64,000 bases of DNA, taken from positions 193,261,322-193,325,321 of the forward strand of contig OY294067.1 in the NCBI GenBank assembly GCA_958510875.1, given 5' to 3'. The first letter of the stretch is position 1, and each line of letters begins with the position of its first letter. Under the pieces are notes generated by a model that did not search any database, was not told where the DNA came from, and worked only from the letters and a program-made list of their open reading frames with translations. Made by a program: the position numbers and the translations under genes. The DNA is from Endomychus coccineus. Its lineage: Eukaryota > Arthropoda > Insecta > Coleoptera > Endomychidae. This document shows, piece after piece, positions 3,538 through 42,605 of this stretch.

Positions 3538-4303
3538 GGGTCATGATGGATATTACAGGATTCTTAATTGATTTATTACTTTGTGTGTTGGTACATTTCT
3601 TTACCTACTGTAAAGAAGCTCTGAAATCTTGAATACTTATTTGAAGGGAAACACGTAGATTAGTAGTAAATTTTAGATTTCGTTTATATTAGTATTTCGA
3701 ATTATTGATAATTCCGAATAATTATATTGTTGTATGGGAAGATAGATAGTACCGGGCATTGATATCCGTGTAGTTTTAGTGTCAGATTTGCATACGGTTC
3801 CATTCCTAAATCGCGTATATTTTAATTTCATTTAGAAACGTGCATATTTCGTGTCAACAAAAGATATCGGAACAGATGTAACCATAAAAACGCCACAAAA
3901 TCGAGGAACTGGTGGACCATCATGAGGTGACTTGACCAGCACCTCGATTGGTATAAAAGAACGCCTCGCAAACGTTGAATTTTAATTCTTACGAACATAG
4001 TGAGCAAGCAACTAAAGTCTGAGTTAACCATTTAGTCAGCCGAGATCAAAAAGTAAGTGCTCCACCAATTACCTTTGAAGTATTAGGTAAATAGTGATTT
4101 TGCTATTTGAGGTAGTACATTGAGTTCCATTGTTTTGCCCGTGGTACACCCTTGTAATATCAAATATTGTTTAATTAGTAATTGTAATTATTGTATTGTA
4201 CCTGATAAGTTTATCCTGTAAAGACTTCCATAACGTTCCGATAAAATAAATTGTGTTTTGTACCGATAAACGTAAAAATTTAATTTGTTAAGTAATTGTA
4301 ATG
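3538..4303 (+). repeat. 5' LTR of the gypsy element (right end approximate)
   Basis: Similarity to the downstream LTR is strong from about 3610 to 3990 (for example GGGAAACACGTAGATTAG and AATCGAGGAACTGGTGGACC in both) and weaker back to GTCATGATGG near 3540. The right end is uncertain because the 3' copy is truncated. TGTCAGAGGGTG near 4303 could be a degenerate primer-binding site, but this is weak. Confidence 0.65.
3952..3958 (+). promoter_or_regulatory. TATA box of the 5' LTR
   Basis: TATAAAA within GGTATAAAAGAACGCCTCG, conserved at the matching place in the 3' LTR (12245-12251). Its position at the end of the conserved U3-like part fits an RNA polymerase II promoter for the retrotransposon transcript. 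Confidence 0.7.
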
Positions 4304-4340
4304 TGTCAGAGGGTGTGAATGATTAGAGTGAAAGGGTATC

Positions 4341-4698
4341 ACGACACACCAATATACACTGTGTCTATCCGGGAATTAAGGTGTCGTAGATAGTCCAGCA
4401 CTAGGGTCTACACGCTGTGACTACCCGGAAGTAGGCTTTGAAGGAGGAATAGAGTGAAAGTGAATCACGACGCACCAATATACACTGTGTCTACCCGGAA
4501 ATAAGGGTGCGTCGTAGATAGTCCACCGTCAGGTCTACATGCTGTGACTACCCGGAAGTAGGCTCTGAAAGAAAAGGTATATTCGAGAGTCGTAATTTCC
4601 ACTGTACACACTGTGTCTACCCGGAAGTACAGTGGTATTACTGACGAGGTGATTATAATTCTAACACGCTGTGACTACCCGGAAGTAAGAGTTATAAT
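4341..4698 (+). repeat. Array of six hairpins presenting a shared core in the gypsy leader
   Basis: Six consecutive units each carry a core close to CTGTG(A/T)CTACCCGGAAGTA, enclosed by a stem whose sequence differs from unit to unit yet still pairs. The stems are: 4341-4347/4381-4387; 4403-4411/4431-4439 (with G-U pairs); 4467-4476/4506-4515 (10 perfect pairs); 4532-4538/4558-4564; 4599-4607/4627-4635 (9 perfect pairs); and 4652-4662/4688-4698 (11 pairs, one G-U). Odd units use the variant ACTGTGTCTACC and even units GCTGTGACTACC, so three two-unit modules may have been duplicated. The core can itself form CAC..GTG and TAC..GTA mini-stems. The position between LTR and gag suggests a structured RNA element of the genomic transcript (packaging, dimerisation or translation). 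The role is inferred. Confidence 0.8.
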
Positions 4699-5823
4699 TG
4701 CCAAATTTATGTGTGGGTAGTACATAAGTGCCTGGCACTGTCGTACAATTACCCGTGAGACGGTCTCCGAGAAATTATGCGTACTAACGTGAAAGAAGTG
4801 CAGGATAAATGAATCTCAGTATTCACTATTATTAGAAGTACCCTAAAAATTACTGATATTGCGCGGGCATAGTGAGGGTATTGCAGAGGTTTTATTACAA
4901 CTCAAGACCTGCTTTCACTTGCTCTGCTCGAGTATACCATGCACGATAATTAATTTTGCTAACAATTAGTGCGTTTTAATAGTATTCACATGACTATTTG
5001 TTTGTAAGGTTATAATAAGGAATTAGCCAGCTTGGATCGCTTGCTTAAAATTATTGCTTCTGAGCTTCCTTGTGCTTCCCCCGTGGTCGAGATTACGTCA
5101 CAAAATGGCGCCCTCGAGCAGGGACCTTTGAAAATTGACCGAGGGAGGATACGTATTTTTTTTAAGTCGAAAAGTTTTTTTTTTCGAAAAATTGGATTAT
5201 TTATAGCAATTGAACTGGTTGTCCGATTTGGATTAAAGTTGAAACATAGTTAGACAAAAACAATTTCTACGACCCCCACGTTTTGAACACGATTTCAAAT
5301 CATCCTCAGGAGTTTGTTTTTAAATTTTGGAAATTTTGTAAATGTTTCGACTGAAACTTGCTCCACGAAGCTGTTTGTTAAAAAAAAAATTTCAATTCGC
5401 CCCCCGTTTCAGGGGAAATTTGAAGTTTGTAACCGTACATCCGATTCAGAAATGAATTATTCCGCTAGGTGTAGATTACTACCTTCACCTGAAATTTCGA
5501 ATTTTTCCCCTAATTTGCCCTTTGATTTTCCTAGTCAACCGTAACCCGGATTAGTCAAGTGATAGTTCCTTTTCGAGTAACTCAACCCCAAGGAAGCCAT
5601 TGGTAACACTTTTGGGCGGATGAACCCCACCGTTTTTGAGTTACCCCCATCCCACATCTAAACTGGGTTGTCCAAATTGGGGCAAGTGGTTTCCTCGATT
5701 CTGCCTTAGCGAGGAGAAGCCCTGTACATATTTTAAACATCGCACCCTTATCCGTTACCTACCTCTACTTCAAATTTTTTTTTGGGTTCGAAATTTTTCT
5801 AAATCGAGTTGGATTCAAAAAAT
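4699..5823 (+). other. Rest of the gypsy 5' leader, no gene recognised
   Basis: About 1.1 kb between the hairpin array and the first gag ATG. Short ORFs (for example at 5032-5253 and 5314-5544) show no recognisable domains. The segment has long T and A runs. It is treated as untranslated leader or eroded sequence. Confidence 0.4.
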
Positions 5824-11768: not shown

Positions 11769-12290
11769 TGTCATGATAGGATATCTCACTTTTGTATTAG
11801 GTTTTGTTTTAGGTATCTTACTTATGTACTAGTTTTTTACAATTCTTGATTTCATCCTTCCATTTTTCGCTGAACTAAGGGTAACGAAGTTCTAAAATAT
11901 TGAATAATTATTTAATGGGAAACACGTAGATTAGTTGTAAATTTTAGATTTCATTTATATTAGTATTTCGAATTGATAATTCCGAATAATTATATTGTTG
12001 TATAGGAAGATAGATAAAACCGGGCATTGACATCCGTGTAGTTCAAGTGTCAGATTTGAATATAGTTCCATTCAAAAGTCGCGTATATTTTGATTTCATT
12101 CAGAAACGTGCATATTTCGTGTCAACAATGTAACCATAAAAACGCCACAAAATCGAGGAACTGGTGGACCATCATGAGCGCGAAATGAGCAAAAAAGGGC
12201 TCGGCTGGAGCTGGTGTAGGTGAGTTGACCAGAATCTCGATTGGTATAAAAGAACGCCTCGCAAGCTTTGAATTTAATTATTGTCAGTGA
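11769..12290 (+). repeat. 3' LTR of the gypsy element, truncated
   Basis: Starts TGTCATGATAGG right after the purine-rich tract. It tracks the 5' LTR through the TATA box (12245-12251) and GAACGCCTCGCAA, then similarity fades near 12290. It carries a 50-bp segment after ATCATGAG (about 12178-12230) absent from the 5' LTR. The missing right part removes any target duplication. Confidence 0.75.
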
Positions 12291-12429: not shown

Positions 12430-14240
12430 TAGACACTTGTCAAGTTGTTTTTGCGATGAAATATATTTCATCATAATTAGAATCTAGTGCTTCTCGAATG
12501 AAATCATATTTCAATCTTTGATGTTTTCTATGTTCAGTAGCTACTTTCATAAATGCCTGATTATCTTCATGAAGTATCGTTGCTTCAGTTAATAGAATAT
12601 TCATTTTATTCAACAATCCTCTCAACCATGGACATTCACTTACTGCTGCTGCAAGAGCATTATATTCTGCTTCGGCAGTTGAAAGTGCCAAAACATTTGG
12701 AAATATATCCAGATGTAGACTTCCGATCTTGTAGATCATTTGCAAAGTCTGCATCACAAAAGCCTTTGAATATATTATATTTCTTTTTACTGAAAATAAG
12801 ACTCAGATCTTTCGAAAATTTAAGATATCTAAAACCCTCTTCAAATGAGACCAATGTACATCTGATGCCTTCGTTTGGATACTACTGAGGAAATTGACTG
12901 CATAACATAGATTTGGTCTCGAATTTACCATCAAATATCAATGTTTTCCAAACATTTTATTTTGAACTCGTTGTTGAGTCGTTTTTCATTTTATTCATTT
13001 CCTCAGTAGAGTTTCTCACTATAAGAATATCATCTACAAACACTAAAAGATATGAGATGATATTCCCGAAACACTTGATACAAAGACAATTATCTGATTC
13101 ACTCCTGCAAAAATTCTCTCTCATCATCACACAGTCAAAACGTTTATACCAACAATATGGTGATTGTTTTAATCCATACAAAGAATTATTCAATTTACAT
13201 ATCATGCAAGAATCATCTGTGAAACCAGGAGGTTGATTTATATAGATATCTTCATCTAATTTTCCATGAAGAAATGCAGTTTTTACATCCATTTGGAAAA
13301 TAGAAAAATTCTTCTGAACGGTCAAAACCAACAAGATTCTAATTGTTATTATATTTGCTACAGGAGCATAAGTCTCACAATAATCAAAACCATATTGGTG
13401 ACTACAACATTTTGCAACTAACTTTGCTTCATACCTAATTTCATTTTTATCAGAATCAATATTGTTAATTGTGTAAATTCATCTACAAGCAACTATCTTC
13501 CTCCCTTTTGGTTTTTGAACTAGTGTCCAAGTTAGATTATCTAATTCGTGATATGTGTTCTGATGATCCAAAATGATTTACTGAAGATTCTGGTTTTCTG
13601 CAAACATTCTCATCGCTCTCAATGTCACAGATAGTCATTTCTTTCGGTTCAGTTTTGTCTACATTACTCACCGGATGAAACTCATATTCTCTCTTTTCAA
13701 CAACAACCAGATGATATGTTTCAAAATTTTCCATGCATTCCATTGATTCGTCAAATATCACATCTCTTTCAATCTTCGCACATCCATTCTCACAATCCCA
13801 TGACCTGTATTCATTTGAAGCATAACCAATCATAAGACATTTCAAACTCTTCTTATCAAATTTGCTATTTCGAAACTGTTTAGGTTTGTGAAGATATGCT
13901 TTACAACCAAATATACGTAAATTTGACAAATTTGGTTTCTTACCATTCCATATTTCAAATGATGTTTGAGATTTTATAGCTGCTGTGGGAGATCTATTCA
14001 ACAAATATGCTGAAGTTCTGCTTCACCCCAAAAATGTTTATTCATATTTGCATCAATAATCATAAAAAGTGCCTTTTCATCTAAAGGCCTATTCAGTTTT
14101 TCAGCATTACCATTTTATTCAGAAGAATATGGTACAGTATAATCAATAACGATTCCATTCGAATCACAAAAATCTCTGAACTCTTTAGAAACATATTCTC
14201 CACCATTATCACATCTCAATTTCAAAATTGATTTTCCTGT
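12430..14240 (-). pseudogene. Ty1/copia pol fragment (integrase, RT, RNase H)
   Basis: Reading down the minus strand: an integrase catalytic remnant (RCDNGGEYVSKEF near 14215-14175); the integrase C-terminal GKKPNLSNLRIFGC and FDESM blocks (13537-14004); the RT blocks FSIFQMDVKTAFLHGKLDE, LYGLKQSP and the active site LLVFVDDILIV (12957-13334); and copia RNase H blocks CDADFANDLQDRKSTSGY, ALSTAEAEYNALA and HEDNQAFMK (12440-12854). Frames are interrupted near 14000, 13500 and 12900. Gag, protease and LTRs are not visible. The left end falls about 140 bp beyond the truncated gypsy LTR. Confidence 0.9.
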
Positions 14241-24586: not shown

Positions 24587-25319
24587 CCGCAGAGAAATTA
24601 TTACAATTAAATTACATTTGATTACAGTAAAAAAAACATTCATTACACCTCCCGGGCCCAAAATACTAGCCTGTGAGCCAGGTTCCACCTGAAGCTACAC
24701 CACATCAGTCCAACAAGCATTAAATCCGCAGAGAAATTATTACAAATAAATTACATTTGATTACAGTAAAAAAACATTTATTACACCTCCCGGGCCCAAA
24801 ATACTAGCCTGTGGGCCAGGTTACACCTGAAGCTACACCACATCGGTCCAACAAGCATTAAATCCGCAGAGAAATTATTACAAATAAATTACATTTGATT
24901 ACAGTAAAAAAAACATTTATTACACCTCCCGGGCCCAAAATACTAGCCTGCGGGCCAGGTTCCACCTGAAGCTACACCAGATCGGTCCAACAAGCATTAA
25001 ATCCGCAGAGAAATTATTACAAATGAATTACATTTGATTACAGTAAAAAAAACATTTATTGCACCTCCCGGGCCCAAAATACTAGCCTGTGGGCCAGGTT
25101 CCACCTGAAGCTACACCACATCGGTCTAAAAAGCATTAAATCCGCAGAGAAATTATTACAAATAAATTACATTTGATTACAGTGAAAAAAACATTTATTA
25201 CACCTCCCGGGCCCAAAATACTAGCCTGTGGGCCAGGTTCCACCTGAAACTACACCAGATCGGTCCAACAAGCATTAAATCCGCAGAGAAATTATTTGTA
25301 ATAATTTTTCTGCGGATTT
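24587..25319. repeat. 139-bp tandem array, five copies, ending in a foldback
   Basis: CCGCAGAGAAATTATTA recurs at 24587, 24726, 24864, 25003, 25142 and 25281 (period 138-139). Each unit includes CACCTCCCGGGCCCAAAATA. The last copy turns into a hairpin: 25277-25296 pairs with 25300-25319 around a 3-base loop, one mismatch. The array fills the place between jockey ORF1 and the post-endonuclease part of ORF2. Confidence 0.92.
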
Positions 25320-30391: not shown

Positions 30392-31519
30392 TCACACCAA
30401 ATTCCGAACTGATCCTGTAATCGGAGAATACTCCATTGTACGGTCGTTAATGATGATGCAATAAGCCCGGGTGTTTTTGGGGAAATTCAGGAAACTTTCC
30501 ATCTCTAGTTTGACGTCAACTGTTGATGACTTTATAGCATCGTTTTGTTTTGAACAATCAATCACAAAAATTGCTCTATTCTTGAATGCTATATAATCTA
30601 ACATGGGCTCGCTTATTATTTTATTTGAAAATGATTTCTGGAAATCATAGTACATCTGGTATGCTTCCACATATTGCTGGTCGGTGAAATTCAATTTCAT
30701 TGCTTCATATGGATAAAACTCTGTATTCAAGTATAATTTTACATTTAGCAAGTTTATATTATCGAAATATGCACTGTGCTTAACAGCCCAAATGTCACGA
30801 GTGCTCTCTTTCATCAACGGATTTTCATGCAGATCCCAACTACGGAATGAAATCAAAATAGGCTTCTCAGCACTCAAATTCTCCAACATTTGAAATTTAA
30901 CTTGATCACTGGGAAACACATGTCGCACTTTTAATGCTATCGTCTTCACATTTATTTTAGCCGTTTTCGTGCCTGTGCTATTAGTATAGCAATCGTTATC
31001 GGTTCGAGACCTTATCAAGCGCACCTTATGTTTTCCAATCAATACTTTGTTATAGTCAATGAATAGGCCTAGTAGAAAATTCAACGGTATCCATAAATTG
31101 ATTTTATTATTGTAGACTGAACTCAATGCATCCTTAAATGACCATCCAGAAATAGCTAGAGGTAAAGATTCATGTTTGGCATATGTTAGATAAGCTCTGA
31201 TGGTGCTGACAATACCAGGATCACGTACTTTGTCTATCTCTTTTCCGTTAAATTCATAACTGATATATTCGAAGAGAAACGCTCCGAAATTATTCGTTAG
31301 TTTACATTCACCATCACCACTTGCTTTTGGCTGGAATTCTGCCTCGATGAATAAAGCAGACGAGGCCAAATCTACCAATACATCTTGTTGATTGATTAAA
31401 ATCTCAATTTCGTCGCTGTTGCCAATAGTTGTTGTGTGGGGATAGAAGGTATGAGTTTCTTCTCGGATGATGTCTTCATTGAAGTTTGGCTCGTTGAATA
31501 TTTGAAGTTTTTCCGACAT
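30392..31519 (-). CDS. Polinton-type major capsid protein candidate
   Basis: The frame is intact from ATG at 31519 (MSEKLQIF) to the stop, 375 codons; the upstream TTG is not a likely start. Recognisable blocks are GNSDEIEILINQQDV, the FLFEYISYEFNGKEIDKVRD strand, IPLNFLLGLFIDYNKVLIGK, SFRSWDLHENPL, and a C-terminal FVIDCSKQNDAIKSSTVDVK. These match a widespread arthropod protein found with Polinton genes and read as a double jelly-roll capsid protein. Its place as the last gene of a block with penton, protease, ATPase and integrase supports that role in an icosahedral particle. It sits directly after the penton gene, with a TATAAA-like box 24 bp before the ATG. A second, partial copy lies at 39319-39528 on the other strand. 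The capsid fold itself is inferred. Confidence 0.75.
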   Translation of the reverse strand: MSEKLQIFNEPNFNEDIIREETHTFYPHTTTIGNSDEIEILINQQDVLVDLASSALFIEAEFQPKASGDGECKLTNNFGAFLFEYISYEFNGKEIDKVRDPGIVSTIRAYLTYAKHESLPLAISGWSFKDALSSVYNNKINLWIPLNFLLGLFIDYNKVLIGKHKVRLIRSRTDNDCYTNSTGTKTAKINVKTIALKVRHVFPSDQVKFQMLENLSAEKPILISFRSWDLHENPLMKESTRDIWAVKHSAYFDNINLLNVKLYLNTEFYPYEAMKLNFTDQQYVEAYQMYYDFQKSFSNKIISEPMLDYIAFKNRAIFVIDCSKQNDAIKSSTVDVKLEMESFLNFPKNTRAYCIIINDRTMEYSPITGSVRNLV

Positions 31520-31542
31520 TGTAACCAAGGAACTTCAAAAAA

Positions 31543-31548
31543 TTTATA
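31543..31548 (-). promoter_or_regulatory. TATA-like box before the capsid gene
   Basis: TATAAA on the minus strand, 24 bp upstream of the capsid ATG at 31519. Comparable boxes precede the penton, DUF8207-like and ATPase genes, suggesting that each gene has its own promoter. Confidence 0.45.
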
Positions 31549-31741
31549 TTTTCCAATGACAGTGATGCAGAAGCAACCTTCTCCCTTGAAATCGTTGTAG
31601 ATAATGACTGATGACCACTATGGAGATGTCTTTTATTGCTGAAATCCAAACCCATGTTCTGAAGAGGCGTCTACTGCAACAACAACCTTCTCAAATGGAT
31701 TCTTTTCATATAATGAATGTTGGTGAGTATTGGATTATTAT

Positions 31742-32485
31742 TTATTGTTGTGAGCCATAATCTCTTGTGGTCTTTTTCAACTCTAACCGTATAATAATTT
31801 CTTCTCCACGAAAATTTAACCGTTTCCAATTCTGATCCAAAATATTCAGTGTGATGTTATCAAAGGACGTCTTATTGATGATCGGTAGATAAATGAGATT
31901 CTTCGGCTCTATATCAATGGAAAAACCAGGTGGTACAAGGGGTGAAAACTCATATATCGTATGAGCTAACTTATTGTTATAATATGCTCCTGCGGTTAAG
32001 TTACACTCCACTCTAATAGTTTGAACTTTGATTATGTTTATAGGTCGATCAGATACATGTAGTTCACGAGATGTCAATTTCTTTTTGCTGAATCCCAACA
32101 GTTCGCTTATACTATCTTTAGGAATAAAATTCACTTCAAAATCACTCTTCAGCTCTGTGTGTAGAGTGTTGTTGTTAGATTTTATTGATAATTTCCGGTC
32201 ACGTTCTTCTTGCTTCACTCCTATCCCACGAACTGCACTTTGTATGAAATCCTCGATGTCTGTCAACTCGTAGGACCCCGTAGGTATAGTTACTACTTCT
32301 TCCTCACCCTTCACATTTTTATAATAAAATTTATTAAAACCTTCTTCAATGTTCGGAATGCTATTGTACGTATGCAAACCAACAAGTGCGATAGAATAAT
32401 ATGAATGAGGATCTAGTTCTATAGGCGGGTGAAAATCTACAGATAAGCGGGAGCTCTTACCCGTGATAGTGAACGTCTGAGACAT
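31742..32485 (-). CDS. Penton-like minor capsid protein (Polinton)
   Basis: The start is taken at ATG 32485 (MSQTFTITGKSS); the longer frame opens with a TTG and would run into the promoter. The product is 247 residues. Hallmarks are TFTITGKSSRLSVDFHPPIE, YYSIALVGLHTYNSIPNIEE, NKFYY, TIPTGSYELTDIEDFI and a late VPPGFSIDIEPKNLIYLPII. These are shared by the Polinton minor capsid (single jelly-roll, penton base) family. The frame has no stop. It would occupy particle vertices. A TATATAAA box lies about 29 bp upstream. It lies between the protease and the major capsid gene, the common Polinton arrangement. Confidence 0.8.
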   Translation of the reverse strand: MSQTFTITGKSSRLSVDFHPPIELDPHSYYSIALVGLHTYNSIPNIEEGFNKFYYKNVKGEEEVVTIPTGSYELTDIEDFIQSAVRGIGVKQEERDRKLSIKSNNNTLHTELKSDFEVNFIPKDSISELLGFSKKKLTSRELHVSDRPINIIKVQTIRVECNLTAGAYYNNKLAHTIYEFSPLVPPGFSIDIEPKNLIYLPIINKTSFDNITLNILDQNWKRLNFRGEEIIIRLELKKTTRDYGSQQ

Positions 32486-32513
32486 GATTGATGAAAACTT
32501 TACCAACAATCTA

Positions 32514-32521
32514 TTTATATA
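32514..32521 (-). promoter_or_regulatory. TATA box before the penton gene
   Basis: TATATAAA on the minus strand, about 29 bp upstream of ATG 32485 and just past the protease stop codon. Confidence 0.5.
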
Positions 32522-32536
32522 CTAATAAATGCAGGG

Positions 32537-32908
32537 TTAGTCGACCACAACTGAAGAGTTAGAGAGAAATTCTAAACATAACTGACCACAATTATAAGTG
32601 TTATATTGTTGAAAATTGTCGTGATTGAATAATATCTTACACTTTTTGAAATAATCCACTAGTTCGCGTAAATTGCCAAAACTATCATAATATAAAACTG
32701 TATCACCGACTTTATTAAACCCAACCCAGTGAGTGCCTTCATTGTCCGAGCTATCTAAATTAACTATTCCACGCTCTTTTTTCCATGGTCCGTTGGATGG
32801 TAGTTCATCACGCATAAATACTCCTCTAAAATGGGGAATTTTCAGAGCTTTTGCTAGTTTTCGTAGATCGAGATCGGTCAGAGGTCTTCTGGGTAGGTTT
32901 ACTGGCAG
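32537..32908 (-). CDS. Adenain-like cysteine protease (PRO), -1 frame to PX
   Basis: The protease frame is open from the frameshift site at 32908 to the stop at 32537. Before the first Met (32815) it reads NLPRRPLTDLDLRKLAKAL and HFRGVFMRDELP, which is conserved in the family, so translation must start upstream of that Met. Counting from that Met (position 1): His29 in GTHWVGF, Asp44 in YYDSFGN, Gln69/70 and Cys76 in YNTYNCGQLC, the adenovirus-protease order. No ATG opens the conserved N-terminal part, and an in-frame TAA lies just upstream of the overlap. The most economical reading is expression as a -1 extension of the PX-like gene. It would cleave capsid precursors during assembly. Alternative: a simple frameshift mutation separated a once-fused gene. 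Confidence 0.8.
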   Translation of the reverse strand: MPVNLPRRPLTDLDLRKLAKALKIPHFRGVFMRDELPSNGPWKKERGIVNLDSSDNEGTHWVGFNKVGDTVLYYDSFGNLRELVDYFKKCKILFNHDNFQQYNTYNCGQLCLEFLSNSSVVVD

Positions 32909-32914
32909 TTTTTT
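32899..32914 (-). promoter_or_regulatory. Candidate programmed -1 ribosomal frameshift site
   Basis: Minus-strand heptamer A_AAA_AAC at 32914-32908, correctly phased in the PX frame, followed after TGC CAG by the PX stop TAA (32901-32899). A -1 slip enters the protease frame exactly, which is then open for 123 codons. The heptamer is one of the strongest eukaryotic slippery sequences. No convincing downstream pseudoknot was identified by eye. Confidence 0.65.
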
Positions 32915-33372
32915 GGATGTTTATTTAAATATAGACCAAGACCTTTGCGATACTTTTTCAAATATAGACCAGATCCTTGTTTCCCCAAAGCTATAGCTTC
33001 CATTGTTTTATTATGTCTTTCCGTTTCCTCCAAGGTTTTCCGAGCTGCTTTACTGTCGTTGACGGCCTTAGCGATGCCAGCACCACCTCCCGCCAATGCT
33101 CCAGCAGCTGATAATCCGGCAAACAGAGGTATTAAAAATGGTAAAAATCCTCCAGTCTTTGGAATAGGAATTACTCTTGGTAATCGAACATTTTTCCGAC
33201 CACCTGCTTTTTTGAATTGTTTTCGTGCAACTTTCAACGCTGTTTGAGATGTTTTCTTCAGATTGGTTGGGTCAAACTTTTTCTTCATAACTTTTCTCAC
33301 CCCATCGACAATTGCACTTCCGAACCCAACCTTCTTTCTCATAGCCATCCCCAATTTCCTCTTTGCCTTCAT
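32899..33372 (-). CDS. PX-like basic capsid-associated protein (Polinton)
   Basis: The start is taken at ATG 33372 (MKAKRKLGMAMRKKVGFG); the longer frame begins at a TTG. The product has about 157 residues. The N-terminal half is very basic (KKKFDPTNLKKTSQTALK, RKQFKKAGGRKNVRL). Then comes a glycine/alanine-rich hydrophobic stretch (GGFLPFLIPLFAGLSAAGAL) and a C-terminal repeat GLYLKKYRKGLGLYLNK. Adintoviruses and Polintons encode a similar basic, adenovirus pX/pVI-like protein next to the protease. Roles in DNA condensation or membrane disruption are inferred from that analogy. The GLYL repeats may be protease sites. The C-terminus overlaps the protease frame. Confidence 0.65.
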   Translation of the reverse strand: MKAKRKLGMAMRKKVGFGSAIVDGVRKVMKKKFDPTNLKKTSQTALKVARKQFKKAGGRKNVRLPRVIPIPKTGGFLPFLIPLFAGLSAAGALAGGGAGIAKAVNDSKAARKTLEETERHNKTMEAIALGKQGSGLYLKKYRKGLGLYLNKHPKNCQ

Positions 33373-33544
33373 AATTTTATTCACACCGAAAGCGGCAATA
33401 TATGTTTCAAATATTATAATCTTCACTATTGATTCACCCTCATATTCACGGAATTTTGTTCTATTATAATGTCCATACCCTCGAGTCAATAATATTCCAG
33501 CTATTTGTTTGTTCCTAATAATCTCCAAATGGTTAATGATGGGT

Positions 33545-34468
33545 TCATTGAACGAGATCCGAATTATCGATCCAACTGTTGTGATTATTATCTAGACCCA
33601 ACCATTTCACATACTGTTGACCCCTCCTCTTTCGTAATATTTTTTCGACTAAATACACATCGGGTTGTTTTGTTTTCTGTAATTTTTCTTCGTAGAAACA
33701 GCCGCTGATTGGTGCGTTGGTCATATCTTCTAGTAGATATGTGACCGGGTTGGTAATTTTTACTTTGTTGATTTTAAATAATTCCGTACTCCAATTGGGC
33801 GTAAATCCCTTCTCAAAAAAATGTTTAGCCTTACTTATTCGTACCACATCTCCAACGTTGTATTTGTGAGGCAGAGCTAACTTGATGTGTGAGTAGGATC
33901 GCTTCAATATCTCGCTCTCAATCTGTTTCGTCACTTTTATTGGAGCCATATTTATAGTACTATGTTTACGTTTATTACATTTTTCTGTGGTTTCTTCAAG
34001 TATATCAAGCCATTTGTATTTCCCGCTAAGACTAAAATGTTTGTAGAGCGATTCCTTTAACGTTCGAATGACACGTTCAGCAATGGCTGCTTTTTTCACA
34101 CTATACGTATTATAATGATTGATATTATGTTTCTTCATTAGATCGTTAAAGTGTTTATTGAAGAATTCTTTTCCCTGATCGCTTTGCAGATTCCTAGGCT
34201 TACCATGTCCTTCTAGCAATATAGAACTGACCGCTTTCCGAACCTCTTCGGCTGATTTCGTTTTCAGCGTGCGTGTCCATAGAAATTTCGAGAAACAATC
34301 GATCATAACCAAAATGTATTTGAATCCTCTATTTTCACGAGCATAATTACCCATTTCAGCCAGATCCATTTGCCACAAATCATCCAAACCTTTTATGATT
34401 GTTCTGCGCCGTTTGAAATTCTTCCTACTCGGCTTATGAAGCTCATGCGCAACTTGTTCTCTACTCAT
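33545..34468 (-). CDS. Polinton integrase (RVE core plus chromodomain)
   Basis: An intact 307-residue frame from ATG 34468. The retrovirus-type catalytic triad is visible: Asp35 in LWQMDLAEM, Asp97 in LQSDQGKEF, and Glu131 in AIAERVIRTLKE, with 33 residues between the last two. A basic SH3-like region follows (YNVGDVVRISKAKHF). The C-terminal 38 residues form a chromodomain (VYLVEKILRKRRGQQYVKWL and NSWIDNSDLV). This matches the F54H12.3-like integrases of Polintons. It would insert the element's DNA, and the chromodomain may bind modified histones. It is located between the coiled-coil gene and the PX-like gene. Confidence 0.9.
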   Translation of the reverse strand: MSREQVAHELHKPSRKNFKRRRTIIKGLDDLWQMDLAEMGNYARENRGFKYILVMIDCFSKFLWTRTLKTKSAEEVRKAVSSILLEGHGKPRNLQSDQGKEFFNKHFNDLMKKHNINHYNTYSVKKAAIAERVIRTLKESLYKHFSLSGKYKWLDILEETTEKCNKRKHSTINMAPIKVTKQIESEILKRSYSHIKLALPHKYNVGDVVRISKAKHFFEKGFTPNWSTELFKINKVKITNPVTYLLEDMTNAPISGCFYEEKLQKTKQPDVYLVEKILRKRRGQQYVKWLGLDNNHNSWIDNSDLVQ

Positions 34469-34485
34469 CTTATCAATGTGGAAAT

Positions 34486-35025
34486 CTAGTGTAGAATTAA
34501 TTTTTTGGGTATATTTACAGGATTTGGAGTTATACGTTCCACAGAGCCCTGCTTTGTTGTTGTTGTGGATAATGAGGGTCTCTTCTTAGAAGGTTCCACA
34601 GATGCTATCCGTCGTTCTAACGCCTCCACTTTACTAGTAATGTCATTCAGACGCATGTTCACACTGTTAAATGTGTTATTGATCTCTTTCAATTCATTTC
34701 TGTTTTCCCTCACACTATCACTGATTGTTTTATACTATGATTTTATATAGATTCCCATTCCATTATATTTATTCTGAATGTCCATCAGATGTTTATCAAT
34801 GTTGAGAATAATCTTCTCATTCGTTAATTCATGTTCATCCAGATCCTTGTTGATATCTTTGATCAAATCATCAACCCTAACATTGAAGGTATCTTTAAGA
34901 CTGGTTTCCGTCTTCAGATTCAGTTTGTGTGTTAATTTATCAACATGTACTTTTTGCAACATCTCCATCATCATTCGGTGATTTAACGTTGCACAATCTA
35001 CGATTTTCCATATCATAACTTCCAT
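34486..35025 (-). pseudogene. Coiled-coil protein with in-frame amber stop
   Basis: ATG at 35025 opens 96 codons of mostly helical sequence (LTHKLNLKTETSLKDTF, DLIKDINKDLDEHELTNEK). TAG at 34737-34735 stops it. The same frame then continues without another break for about 83 codons (NELKEINNTFNSVNMRLNDI, then KVEALERRI) and ends in a basic tail. Heptad-like spacing suggests one coiled-coil protein of about 180 residues, as expected for a fibre or scaffold-like component. The identity is unknown. The stop may be a mutation or a read-through site. Confidence 0.5.
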
Positions 35026-35123
35026 CGCTCGTTAGGAATAATCCTTGTCCGTGAACTTGTTTGAAATTATTATTAAATATATTTGTATCATATATTCACA
35101 TGGAAGAGGAGGCTCCGCCAAAC

Positions 35124-36186
35124 TTATCCATTGAAACCATCTTTATAACTGTGATGAATTTGTCTTACACAAGGTTTTTGTTCAATTACTCCATCCTCCA
35201 TCAATTCTTCTATTATAGAGACTATCTCGTTGTGATGGTTATTGTTACCAGCGTGCGAGGATGCAACAAGAAGTCTCAGTCTATCCACAATTTCGTTAAC
35301 GTCATCCCAATAAACATATTCGATAGGTTTCTCGTTATATTCAAGCATATCATTTTTGATATATGCATTTCCAGTGTATGTTTTGGACCTTGGTCTTTTC
35401 ATGGGATTAATCAAAGGTTTCAGTACATTTTTGTATTTTACATGTTTCTTATTCGATCAGCTGGATCGTTATTACGTCTATGGACACTAGTCATTTCCAT
35501 CATTTGACTGTAATTTTTCCCATCTTCCACAGTGTAAGTATCAGGTAGAACATCTCTGTAAAATATCAAATTATACAGTCCTGTGGTACCCTTGAACGGA
35601 GTACCCTTGATAATTATATTACTCTCACATCAATTTCTATAGGTTGATTACCCATGAACCATTTGTCTAAAGTTGAATTATATTGCAAACCCATTCTATC
35701 ATCGTATCTCTTGACATCATCATCCAATAGGAATCCTTCCAAGTAATAACGTGCTAATGAGGGGTTTTGTTGCAGAAACTCCTCTGTAGCCGCTGAATTA
35801 TCTTTCTTATGTTTTCTGAATTCTTCACGAATCTGATCGATAGTAGGTTCGGGGGTAAACACATCCTCCTCAGCATCTTGGGGGTTATATACGAATTCTT
35901 CTCCTTCAGTTACAATATCTGGGATTGGTATGTTCTCCATTTGTGTTGCTGTAGAAACAATACTTTTAGGTTTAACCAACGAATTTTGTTTGATTATTTC
36001 AGCATTTTTCGCAATTTCCTCCAGAGGTTTAGATACATTCTTGAACATATTATCTAGAATCTCATCATTTTCAGCTTTACCCAGTTTCAAAGCCATATAT
36101 TTTTTCCTCACAACGTTTGCTAACTCCCAAATTTTTTTCTTCAATTGCTGTTTTGCTTTTAACTTATTAGACACATTGACGTCCAT
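35124..36186 (-). pseudogene. DUF8207-like Polinton protein, two frameshifts
   Basis: ATG at 36186, about 32 bp after a GTATATATAC box. Residues 1-190 are helical and acidic, ending NQPIEIDVRVI at a stop (35614). The next frame continues at once with IIIKGTPFKGTTGLYNLIFY and DPADRIRN. After a second shift near 35450 it reads KYKNVLKPL and ends with a conserved EYVYWDDVNEIVDRLRLLVA block (35124-35414). The KGT..GLY and YWDDPNELVDRLRLL signatures are those of a common arthropod Polinton protein which I believe is classed as DUF8207. Function unknown. Two one-base indels explain the breaks. Confidence 0.65.
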
Positions 36187-36215
36187 GCTGAGCGGGTTGT
36201 CTATTTCAAATGAAG

Positions 36216-36225
36216 GTATATATAC
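36216..36225 (-). promoter_or_regulatory. TATA-like box before the DUF8207-like gene
   Basis: GTATATATAC on the minus strand, about 32 bp upstream of ATG 36186, immediately past the ATPase stop. Confidence 0.45.
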
Positions 36226-36228
36226 ATG

Positions 36229-36954
36229 TTAGATGTATATATAACTATCAAACCCTTTGCGATAACGTCCTTTGTTCATATCACAGTCTTTGTTTATCAT
36301 AAGGAATCCATATTTATCTTTCCTACATACGCTACATATCTCTTTGAATTTCTCGAGTGACATGTCGGTACTTACATGATCGGTAAATATATGTTTCAAA
36401 TTGGGTTCATCCTGTTTGAAAATAATCAAGCAATTGGCATTGTCGCGCAATCCATGTTTTGGACATTTAGCAAAAGACTGACAAAGATAGAAACTATCAA
36501 TTGAGTTGTGTCTCCCTCTTGAAAAATAAGCACGAATTTTCTCCTGTTTCTCATACATAACATCGTCGAATATTATTATCGAATTAGGTCTCGCATCTGT
36601 GGGGTCTATGACCTCATCAGTTTCGGTACAAGGAAAATATCCAAGCCCCTCAATTTTCTTCAATGTCTCCTTTAGTAACTGGTATCTTGGTTGGTGTAAA
36701 GATTTTGAATATATGTACACGTTTTCAAATTTCAGACCGTTTGCATCTAACAATAGCGATAACATCACATTTGTTTTCCCACAATAACTCGGACCACAGA
36801 TTATTGTTCGTGAAGTATTTGGCAGCAAAGAGCTGTGACGTTGTGATTGTTCAATATTTTCAATGCTTGGTCCTAAATTCATAATATTCAACGAGTCTTT
36901 TTGCTTAACAATCTTCATGTTGCCTAGAGGAGCATCGAAATCATACTGAAACAT
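36229..36954 (-). CDS. Polinton genome-packaging ATPase (FtsK/HerA, A32-like)
   Basis: An intact 241-residue frame. Walker A is GPSYCGKT (residues 54-61) and Walker B is SIIIFDDV with Asp131-Asp132. The later stretch SRGRHNSIDSFYLCQSFAKC fits the sensor/arginine-finger area of A32-type packaging ATPases. It would pump DNA into capsids. It is the first gene of the minus-strand block, so the block reads ATPase to capsid. A TATATAAA box sits only 17 bp ahead of the ATG, implying a very short leader or a slightly downstream start. Confidence 0.85.
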   Translation of the reverse strand: MFQYDFDAPLGNMKIVKQKDSLNIMNLGPSIENIEQSQRHSSLLPNTSRTIICGPSYCGKTNVMLSLLLDANGLKFENVYIYSKSLHQPRYQLLKETLKKIEGLGYFPCTETDEVIDPTDARPNSIIIFDDVMYEKQEKIRAYFSRGRHNSIDSFYLCQSFAKCPKHGLRDNANCLIIFKQDEPNLKHIFTDHVSTDMSLEKFKEICSVCRKDKYGFLMINKDCDMNKGRYRKGFDSYIYI

Positions 36955-37151: not shown

Positions 37152-38265
37152 ATGCTCTATGGTTTTGAGTTGAGTTAGCTCTAGAACCTCCAGCTCTATG
37201 GTACGTGATAGCCACCATGGCACCTTGTGACAGACACTCCGTCGAAGTGACAGACACCATATCTCACCGCGTGACAGATCATGTGATTTCAAAACCGTAC
37301 GAGTCGCACGAGTCGGACGAGTCGAACTGTGGGGCGACACCTCCACGAATCAGTCTGCACCTTTATGCTGTGACGTCACAGGTCTGCCCTGTGATAGCAG
37401 CCTGTCATCTTGGATTCACACAAGTCGGACGAGCCGAACTGGTGGCGCCACCTACACGAAGCAGTCTGTACCTTCAACGACCAATCCTATGACAGCTGTC
37501 ACGTGGTGGCGACACCTCCCCGAAGCAGCCTGTACCTTTGGCCCGCCATGACAGCTGTCCTGTGATAGTCACGTGATTCTGTACATGTGACACCTACACG
37601 AAGCAGTCTGTACCTTTTAGCTCGCCATGACAGCTGTCACGTGGTGGCGACATCTTCACGAAGCAGCCTGTACCTTCGATGACAGTTGTCACGTGGTGGC
37701 GACATCTCCATGAAGCAGTCTGTACCTTAAGTCCGCCATGACAGCTGTCACTTGGTGGCGACACCTACACGAAGGAGTCTGTACGTTAGGTCCGCCATGA
37801 CAGCTGTCATGTGATAGCGACACCTACGCGAAGCAGTCTGTACCTTTCAGCCCACCATGACAGCTGTCATGTGATAGCGACACCTACACGAAGCAGTGTG
37901 TACCTTAGGTCCGCAATGACAGCTGTCACTTGGTGGCGACATCTGCACGAAGCAATCTGAACCTTAGGTCCGCCATGACAGCTGTCACTTGGTGGCGACA
38001 TCTGCACGAAGCAATCTGAGCCTTGGGTCCGCCATGACAGCTGTCACTTGGTGGCGACATCTGCACGAAGCAATCTGTACCTTAGGTCCACCATGACAGC
38101 TGTCACTTGGTGGCGACATCTGCACGAAGCAATATGTACCTTAGATCCACCATGACAGCTGTCACTTGGTGGCGACATCTGCACGAAGCAATCTGTACCT
38201 TAGGTCTGCTTAATGCTCTATGGTTTTGACTTGGGGTTAGCTCTATAACCTTCAGCTCTATGGTA
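37152..38265. repeat. Direct repeats of about 52 bp bracketing a tandem array
   Basis: The segment starting ATGCTCTATGGTTTTGA and ending CAGCTCTATGGTA occurs at 37152-37203 and again at 38213-38265, with a few differences. The 59-bp palindrome array lies between the copies. The pair may mark duplication or unequal exchange of a longer unit. Confidence 0.8.
37204..38212. repeat. 59-bp tandem array centred on TGACAGCTGTCA palindromes
   Basis: The GGTGGCGACAT marker lies at 37932, 37991, 38050, 38109 and 38168 (period 59). Earlier units (from about 37480) are more diverged. Nearly every unit contains the 12-bp perfect palindrome TGACAGCTGTCA (an E-box CAGCTG core), followed by a GAAGCA(A/G)TCTGTACCTT word. 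ORFs through it are not meaningful. Confidence 0.9.
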
Positions 38266-38344
38266 TGCACATCGACAGCTAGACCGGAAGTGGAGACCGG
38301 ATATCCTGGTCCCGAAGTAGTCCAGTTCATCTACTTAAATGTTA

Positions 38345-39318
38345 AAGCACGTGTCTGAGTGTTGAAGCACGTGTCTGAGTATTGAAGCACGTGTCTGAAC
38401 ACGTGTCTGAGTATTGAAGCACATGTCTGAGTATTCAAGCACGTGTCTGAATGCTGAAGCACGTGTCTGAATATTGAAGCACGTGCTTAACACGTATCTG
38501 AGTATTGAAGCACGTGTCTGAATGTTGAATCACGTGTCTGAATATTGAAGCACGTGTCTGAATATTGAAGCACGTGTCTGAGTATTGAAGCACGTGTCTG
38601 AGTGTTGAAGCACGTGTCTGAATATTGAAGCTCGTGTCTGAATATTGAAGCACGTGTCTGAATATTGAAGCACGTGTCTGAATGTTGATCACGTGTTTGA
38701 GCACGTGTCTGATTATAGAAGCACGTGTCTGAATGTTGAAGCACGTGTCTGAACATTTGTATGAATATTGAAGCACGTGTCTGAATGTTGAAGCACGTGT
38801 CTGAGTATTGAAGCACGTGTCTGAGTGTTGAAGCACATGTCTGAATATTGAAGCACGTGTCTGAATATTGAAACACGTGTCTGAATGTTGAAACACGTGT
38901 CTGAGCACTGTCTGAGCACATGTCTGAGTGTTGAAGCACGTGTCTGAATATTGAAGCACGTGTCTGAGTGTTGAAACACGTGTTTTAGTATTGAAGCACG
39001 TGTCTGAGTATTGAAGCACGTGTCTGAACACGTGTCTGAGTATTGAAGCACGTGTCTGAATGCTGAAGCACGTGTCTGAATGTTGAAGCACGTGCTTAAC
39101 ACGTTTCTGAGTATTGGAGCACGTGTCTGAATGTTGAAGCACGTGCTTAACACGTGTCTGATTATTGAAGCACGTGTAAGAATGTTGAAGCACGTGTCTG
39201 AGTATTGAAGCACGTTTCTGAGCACGTGTCTGAGTGTTGAAGCACGTGTCTGAATATTGAATCACGTGTCTGAGTGTTGAAGCACGTGTCTGAATATTGA
39301 AGCACGTATCTGAACACT
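38345..39318. repeat. 20-bp tandem array with CACGTG in each unit
   Basis: About 45 copies of a 20-bp unit such as AAGCACGTGTCTGAATATTG, with a few short insertions (ACACGTGTCTGA). Each unit holds the palindromic E-box CACGTG. Because 20 is not divisible by three, all minus frames stay open and give peptide repeats such as RHVLQYSDTCFN; these are not genes. The array runs straight into the C-terminal part of a capsid gene at 39319. Confidence 0.95.
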
Positions 39319-42254: not shown

Positions 42255-42605
42255 ATCGATTCACACGTGATAGCCGCCATGATACCTCGTGACAGACGCC
42301 ATGACACCACGTTGAAGACCCACGTGACAGACCCCTCGTCGATGTAACACGTGAAAGGCGTCATGACACCTCGTTGCAGACCTGCGTGACAACCACCTCG
42401 TCGAAGAATCTCGTGATAGCCGCCATGACACCTCGTTGAAGACCCACGTGACCCCTCGTTGACCGCCATGACACCTCGTTGAAGAATCACGTGATAGCCG
42501 CCATGACACCTCGTTGAAGACCCACGTGACACCTCGTTGACCGCCATGACACCTCGTTGAAGGATCACGTGATAGCCGCCATGACACCTCGTTCAAAACC
42601 ACGTG
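42255..42605. repeat. Tandem array with CACGTG palindromes near the second Polinton end
   Basis: Alternating units GCCATGACACCTCGTTGAAG + ACCCACGTGAC and the same + AATCACGTGATAGCC. The ATCACGTGAT palindrome recurs. The GATAGCC(A/G)CCATG(A/G)CACC words are shared with the start of the 59-bp array at about 37208. ORFs across it are not genes. Confidence 0.85.

Follow-up and report, generated by a model that had tools for sequence, protein, structure and literature searches.

Why should one short core be repeated six times in a few hundred bases of a retrotransposon of the beetle Endomychus coccineus, each time enclosed by a stem of its own? Within the window, i.e., the whole stretch of 64,000 nucleotides that was analysed (36% GC), the core CTGTGWCTACCCGGAAGTA is found in four exact copies and one with a single mismatch (searched to three mismatches), against 0.00 expected from 100 shuffles. 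The sixth copy of the array, as counted in an earlier, sequence-only reading of this DNA, is also there, at 4359, in a degenerate form that gave a weaker match (24.3 bits) to a hairpin model trained partly on units of the window.

The carrier element and the position of the array

The features of the element that delimit the array are as follows.

3609..5102, forward strand: 5' LTR of a broken Ty3/gypsy-type element, from homology limits, its ends and the 4-bp TSDs of siblings
3952..3958, forward strand: TATA box, from sequence
5106..5126, forward strand: PBS (TGGCGCC...), from sequence, 3 nt past the LTR end
11881..12282, forward strand: 3' LTR remnant, homologous to 3610-3990

The siblings compared were 39 + 28 LTR copies, plus 8 and 11 short pieces, from the host assembly (906 Mb, 129 contigs). 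The first set of 39 (L014-L052) was obtained with the array as query, 40 of 438 candidates being scored; the query of the second set was 4760-5093, just 3' of the array, with 40 of 710 candidates scored and 28 new loci. In the first set, homology to the window starts at 3596-3618 in 30 of the 39 copies and stops at 5068-5095 in 36, exactly at 5093 in 15 of these. Past this end, 34 of the 39 continue with sequence common to at least 28 other copies, up to ~430-440 bp, that is absent from the window copy, whose 5' LTR (starting with TGTAAAG and ending with TACGTCACA) is ~430 bp shorter than most siblings, with the loss near its 3' end. By eye, nine of the 16 siblings displayed carry TACGTCACA or a variant followed by 4 bp identical to those before the LTR start, and are therefore solo LTRs. 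A purine-rich tract stands before L029 and L046, which gives them the appearance of 3' LTRs.

Downstream of the PBS, which we take to be tRNA-Lys-like, a broken Ty3/gypsy-type gag-pol occupies 5.8-10.5 kb of the window, with RVT_1 above its cutoff and rve below its own. Among the 120 matches listed (of 2220), the relatives of the RT include insect proteins named gypsy-like or RT, the named ones coming from ants, a wasp, beetles, flies and a butterfly. With TG...CA ends, TSD and purine-rich tract in siblings, and PBS, RT and a sub-threshold integrase in the window, the carrier is a Ty3/gypsy-type LTR retrotransposon.

These limits shift the array from the place first assigned to it, after the LTR and before gag. 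Given the LTR at 3609-5102, the TATA box at 3952 and the PBS-like sequence at 5106, the array at 4338-4702 is, on these sequence landmarks, inside the LTR, 3' of the TATA box and 5' of the PBS, and therefore in the predicted leader RNA, in what would be its R/U5 part. The TATA-box sequence GGTATAAAAG is exact in 13 of the 39 siblings as well as in the window, and the transcription start is predicted a few tens of bases 3' of it. As a candidate poly(A) signal, GATAAA/AATAAA is found 3' of the array, AATAAA occurring in 18 of the 39 siblings at scattered positions. The homology of the window's 3' LTR remnant stops before reaching the array.

Other features of the window were noted in passing. 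Open stretches at 12440-14004 on the reverse strand, adjoining the truncated 3' LTR, resemble Ty1/copia-type pol by eye. A double-jelly-roll capsid domain, an integrase with a sub-threshold chromodomain and an A32-like ATPase are encoded at 30392-36954, also on the reverse strand, by genes that we take to be Polinton/Maverick-like. Large tandem arrays lie at 37589-39314, 24587-25296 and 42288-42605, with periods of 59, 20, 139 and ~78 bp.

Stems, pairing and constraint

The hairpins of the window copy, and the duplication from which four of them derive, are listed here.

4338..4391, forward strand: hairpin U1 (type A), core decayed, 2 nt lost from the 3' arm in the window copy
4402..4440, forward strand: hairpin U2 (type B), stem of 10 bp
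4464..4519, forward strand: hairpin U3 (type A), stem of 10 bp plus 3 bp
4532..4564, forward strand: hairpin U4 (type B), 7 bp in the window copy
4589..4645, forward strand: hairpin U5, 9 + 5 + 3 bp
4648..4702, forward strand: hairpin U6, 15 bp
4324..4575, forward strand: tandem duplication, 126 bp, source of U1-U2 and U3-U4

Each core does have its own stem, as had been claimed. From U1 to U6, the stems measure 7, 10, 10, 7, 9 and 15 bp, and the best-stem scores against shuffled flanks give p of ~0.02, 0.02, 0/5000, 0.14, 0.004 and 0/5000; the U4 stem, the only non-significant one in this decayed copy, is longer in siblings. In four of the six units, the left arm finds its best partner in its own right arm. 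The exceptions, U2 (score 21 with the U4 right arm vs 19 with its own) and U4 (17 with the U2 right arm, 16 with that of U5, 15 with its own), are duplicates of each other. The three duplicated two-hairpin modules originally proposed reduce to one 126-bp duplication, U5 and U6 carrying stems of their own. Folding of the whole region gave z = -2.35, with 1 of 100 shuffles equally low; under a span limit, the array of the window copy (z = -1.84) is on a par with the LTR piece that follows it (-1.67). Rfam returned no match across the window at the gathering threshold and, at 3600-5800 with E up to 5, just two sub-threshold matches, both outside the array. A lantern/twister-sister ribozyme, whose catalytic internal loops cleave at CA, found no support, there being no Rfam match and the loop strands looking different by eye from those in the available part of PMC11620745.

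The repeats are kept in siblings, and the search with a hairpin model that had been advised at the outset bears this out. This model, R1, which drew on 20 units from the window and the first set, matches the array (E up to 0.1) in 27 of the 28 second-set loci, which were chosen by a query outside the array; in the remaining one, L074, the array is deleted. Genome-wide, there are 370 exact copies of CTGTGWCTACCCGGAA and 133 of CTGTGYTYTACCCGGAA, whereas their reversed patterns occur 0 times and once. An array usually consists of six hairpins, but repeats of A-B units have expanded the arrays of L039, L045, L051 and L082 to 8-12 hairpins. Five viral contigs containing the core (L001-L005), chosen by the pattern itself, were rejected as core-only, with no stems.

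A further family, B (L089-L095, L097-L099), was reached via a search with the 8-nt core and is 68-76% alike to family A in stretches of ~60-130 bp around the array. Its three hairpins, V1-V3, combine the core of family A with stems whose sequences differ and which, where best preserved, measure 13, 10 and up to 18 bp; R1, which had no family-B training sequence, finds 19 matches in L089-L095 and 7 in L097-L099. Homology to family A suggests that this array also lies in an LTR, as does the pair L089/L090, 4,168 bp apart on one strand with 485 of 521 aligned bases identical, as expected of the two LTRs of one element, a segmental duplication being the alternative. Loops are mixed in family B: V1 of L093 deviates, and in L098 the loops of V1 and V2, unlike that of V3, are longer. 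By eye, L095, L097 and L099 contain fusion hairpins, made of the V1 5' arm and the V2 3' arm across a shared core; the cores therefore act as recombination points. Also by eye, L089-L093 have, between V2 and V3, a hairpin at the place of U5 with part of the outer stem and no core motif.

Pairing is kept where different hairpins are compared. All 91 units with an exact core, from the window and the first set together, are paired at 10.15 of 13 symmetric positions, vs 7.05 with arms re-dealt (maximum 7.95 of 2000) and 4.2-6.1 with arms slid. In 16 hand-chosen units (A5; 5 of family A, 11 of family B), covariation is 0.643 vs 0.237 shuffled and at most 0.164 slid, 93.0% of cells are paired vs 72.2% shuffled, and 11 pairs are changed on both sides vs 7.5 shuffled. 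The non-Watson-Crick cells of their outer helix include 36 G.U and 3 A.C, an excess that points to sense RNA and that is weaker in the 91 units (103 G.U and 51 A.C over the 13 positions). A set of 20 units (A1), hand-chosen from 74 distinct exact-core units, likewise exceeds its shuffles and slides, but is mostly well-paired and leans towards structure. Individual exchanges can be followed at U1/3 position (-10,10), with A-T 39 times and G-C 24 times among the pairs listed; at U5 (-15,14), with T-A in 22 8-nt-loop copies, C-G in 11 9-nt copies and T.G in both; and at U2/4 (-3,3), where T-A becomes C-G in three 9-nt copies. U1 of L039 shows a double change in one copy.

Within a single hairpin class the picture is different. 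Paired cells in the four classes amount to 84.0 vs 83.3, 90.1 vs 89.9, 81.0 vs 79.9 and 89.2 vs 89.5% shuffled, U6 falling slightly under its shuffled value and the other classes hardly exceeding theirs. Double changes in U1/3 number 31 (shuffled mean 20.8, maximum 29), whereas the remaining three classes stay within what shuffling gives. Slid pairings form far fewer pairs (no class exceeds 62%), yet several of them hold as many or more double-changed cells (e.g., 45 vs 31 in U1/3 and up to 46 vs 19 in U5), and the within-class count therefore does not single out the structure. Such a weak signal is expected of dead copies each decaying alone, and so is the failure of RNAalifold to recover an array-wide structure from 37 array copies (of 40, L039, L045 and L051 having been left out for their extra units). 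Whole subfamilies are mismatched at U5 (-4,4), which is G-C, G.A or G.G by subfamily, and U6 (-7,7) is T.G or G.G by subfamily, uncompensated. The original claim that stems change while pairing is kept thus stands between hairpins, subfamilies and families, where compensation is visible, and is weak within one orthologous hairpin, where most sibling changes are uncompensated decay; siblings lacking compensatory changes, the observation named in advance as weighing against that claim, are thus seen in part, at the latter level. Span-limited folds of 16 selected arrays out of 68 loci (40 shuffles each) gave z-scores of -0.8 to -4.7, and flanking LTR pieces +1.5 to -2.3.

Constraint was compared on a tree of 30 LTRs (of 40, also without L023, L026, L033, L037, L038, L040 and L042). 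The ratio of internal to terminal changes is 0.25 for the LTR outside the array, and within the array it ranges from 0.04 to 0.10 over core, stems, inner triplets and linkers. The comparison is biased because the copies were found using the array as query, and the core's low figure for terminal changes points to such a bias (1.34 per site; inner triplets have 1.39, linkers 1.64, stems 1.72 and the sequence outside 1.66). With a tree built from half of the outside blocks, the array has a ratio of 0.090 and the blocks not used for the tree one of 0.236. Linkers look as constrained as cores.

The apical motif and its two loop lengths

The hairpins share an apical motif with three parts: a 3x2 internal loop (ACR/AA), CUG...CGG, which hardly varies, and a loop UG-N(2-3)-U-ACC. 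The core is not invariant, as first thought, and changes between lineages: the loop has 8 nt, UGUCUACC in A units and UGACUACC in B units, or 9 nt, UGUCUUACC, UGUUCUACC, UGCUUUACC or UGUUUUACC. Loop length was typed on near-intact cores only, and 64 of 68 loci had at least two typable units. An array has one loop length in 61 of these 64 loci (45 all 8 nt, 16 all 9 nt), vs a mean of 13.9 and a maximum of 25 in 5000 permutations, and a single unit deviates in each of the other three, L014, L066 and L076; eight loci picked by the 9-nt pattern (L081-L088) are not counted here. The stem classes remain recognisable throughout, so the difference affects no fewer than four hairpins, unrelated in their stems, at the same time. 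Arrays with 9-nt loops may mix loop sequences (L060, L061, L082).

On a tree of the LTR piece that follows the array (64 loci), loop length requires 11 changes (shuffled mean 17.3, minimum 13) and the five loop types 14 (mean 18.8, minimum 14), and the 9-nt types form no single clade. Loop length therefore tracks the neighbouring LTR weakly, and arrays probably recombine between LTR lineages. The concordance may go back to a small number of original loop changes.

The three-way junction that had been suggested for the cores finds no support as a shared fold. Among 323 units picked by a near-intact core, a core-UAC/GUA mini-stem is possible in 189, yet in just 6 of 101 U1/3 units, whose outer triplet pairs in 84 of 101; U6 shows the reverse, the mini-stem being possible in 53 of 59 and outer triplet pairing in 0 of 59. 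A CAC/GTG or ACA/TGT mini-stem is possible in 265 of the 323, nearly as many as allow the CTG/CGG pairing drawn here (275), but the seven typed units that carry CTGCGAC cannot form it. The CUG/CGG pair itself shows no covariation in the 20-unit family-A set or the 16-unit two-family set.

The proposed reader of the array

Selection on a row of sense-strand hairpins that share an apical motif is well supported, and we consider it very probable that a selected RNA hairpin array is what we are looking at. As many stems present one tip, a trans-acting factor would be its reader. The account that we prefer, with just short of an even chance, is a cis-acting, multivalent RNA element in the leader of an LTR retrotransposon, read by one trans factor, most likely Gag/nucleocapsid. 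Successive long hairpins with interchangeable stems would display the motif, several of them would bind one RNA-binding factor at once, and the element's own Gag would most likely use them in genome selection or dimerisation; the difference in loop length would be a change of recognition that every hairpin had to follow.

Gag is favoured because of the analogy with retroviral leaders, and on this analogy its role, or one in packaging, is put forward tentatively, at somewhat less than an even chance. GACG-tetraloop leader hairpins of gammaretroviruses, alpharetroviruses and maedi-visna virus are linked, in the part of PMC516450 available to us, to packaging and dimerisation. They too sit in the leader of an LTR element and share a single conserved type of loop; the present array differs in its copy number (at least six), in having, instead of GACG, an 8-9 nt loop (UGWCUACC or a 9-nt variant) with an internal loop, and in its location inside the LTR, 5' of the PBS rather than between PBS and gag. 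In Ty1 and Ty3, the accessible text of PMC4974528 places packaging cis signals near the RNA 5' end, where Gag binds, at imprecisely defined sites. They resemble our array as cis-acting RNA near the 5' end of LTR-retrotransposon RNA, but Ty1 has a pseudoknot, and repeated same-loop hairpins are absent from the packaging description in that text.

The main rival to Gag as reader, which we regard as somewhat unlikely, is a host RNA-binding protein acting in transport, decay or translation from the very long leader, such as a Smaug-type SAM protein reading CCGG(AA). The core contains CCGGAA, resembling the CNGGN(0-4) loop of the Smaug recognition element (consensus CNGGN0-3/0-4, in the accessible part of PMC4053848), and pairing of core UAC with GUA would allow a CNGG-starting loop in part of the units. 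The mini-stem that this reading needs is impossible in 95 of 101 U1/3 units, however, and contradicted there by the changing pairs, the U1/3 outer arm changing instead along with the 3' triplet (TAT/ATA vs TAC/GTA); the conserved UGxCUACC is left unexplained.

It is improbable, in our judgement, that the array serves as a dimerisation or strand-transfer element through loop-loop contacts that would join two genomic RNAs or link the hairpins to further sites in the leader. CCGG is palindromic, and just 3' of U6, at 4713-4719, GGGTAGT complements ACTACCC of the B-type core, its 11-mer GGGTAGTACAT being present within two substitutions in 30 of the 39 siblings. Kissing of the loops with this site was rejected, as the site ignores the loop change in L045 and L051, and the folded loop UGWCUACC is not self-complementary.

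More improbable still is a DNA-level element, in which CCGGAAGT, which we take to be an ETS-type consensus, would form a site array acting as LTR enhancer or insulator. CCGGAAGT occurs eight times in the window, four of them in the array, vs 0.71 expected, but U1 and U3 mostly carry CCGGAAAT, and compensating stems, the G.U excess and the conserved CTGTG and UACC are not accounted for. The Drosophila gypsy insulator, an array of Su(Hw) sites in the 5' UTR after the LTR, likewise places a repeated motif close to the 5' end of an element of the gypsy type; it is a DNA-protein array 3' of the LTR, whereas the hairpins are inside it, and the Su(Hw) consensus, as we know it, was not found in 3600-5800 at up to one mismatch. 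Least probable of all is a functionless array of inverted repeats spread by slippage or unequal exchange, which would fit the variable unit number (L039, L045, L051, L082) and the recombining cores (L095, L097, L099) but neither the distinct stems with compensatory differences in two families nor the fewer internal-branch changes in the array than elsewhere in the LTR.

Returning to a multivalent leader element read by Gag, no such array is described in the titles and abstract openings listed by searches of open-licence papers. That it represents a modular RNA element of its own kind, with tandem hairpins, freely exchangeable stems, one apical recognition motif and a lineage-specific loop length in all hairpins, is possible, if rather doubtful. 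The marks by which LTR retrotransposons package their own RNA are poorly defined even in yeast, according to the available text of PMC4974528. If the proposal is true, the array would record the co-evolution of a retrotransposon RNA with the protein that selects it, and the 8-nt and 9-nt arrays would be two recognition specificities within one genome. The two loop lengths make the recognition hypothesis directly testable, and the many stems, both loop lengths and hundreds of exact cores in a single genome constitute a ready sequence-structure data set.
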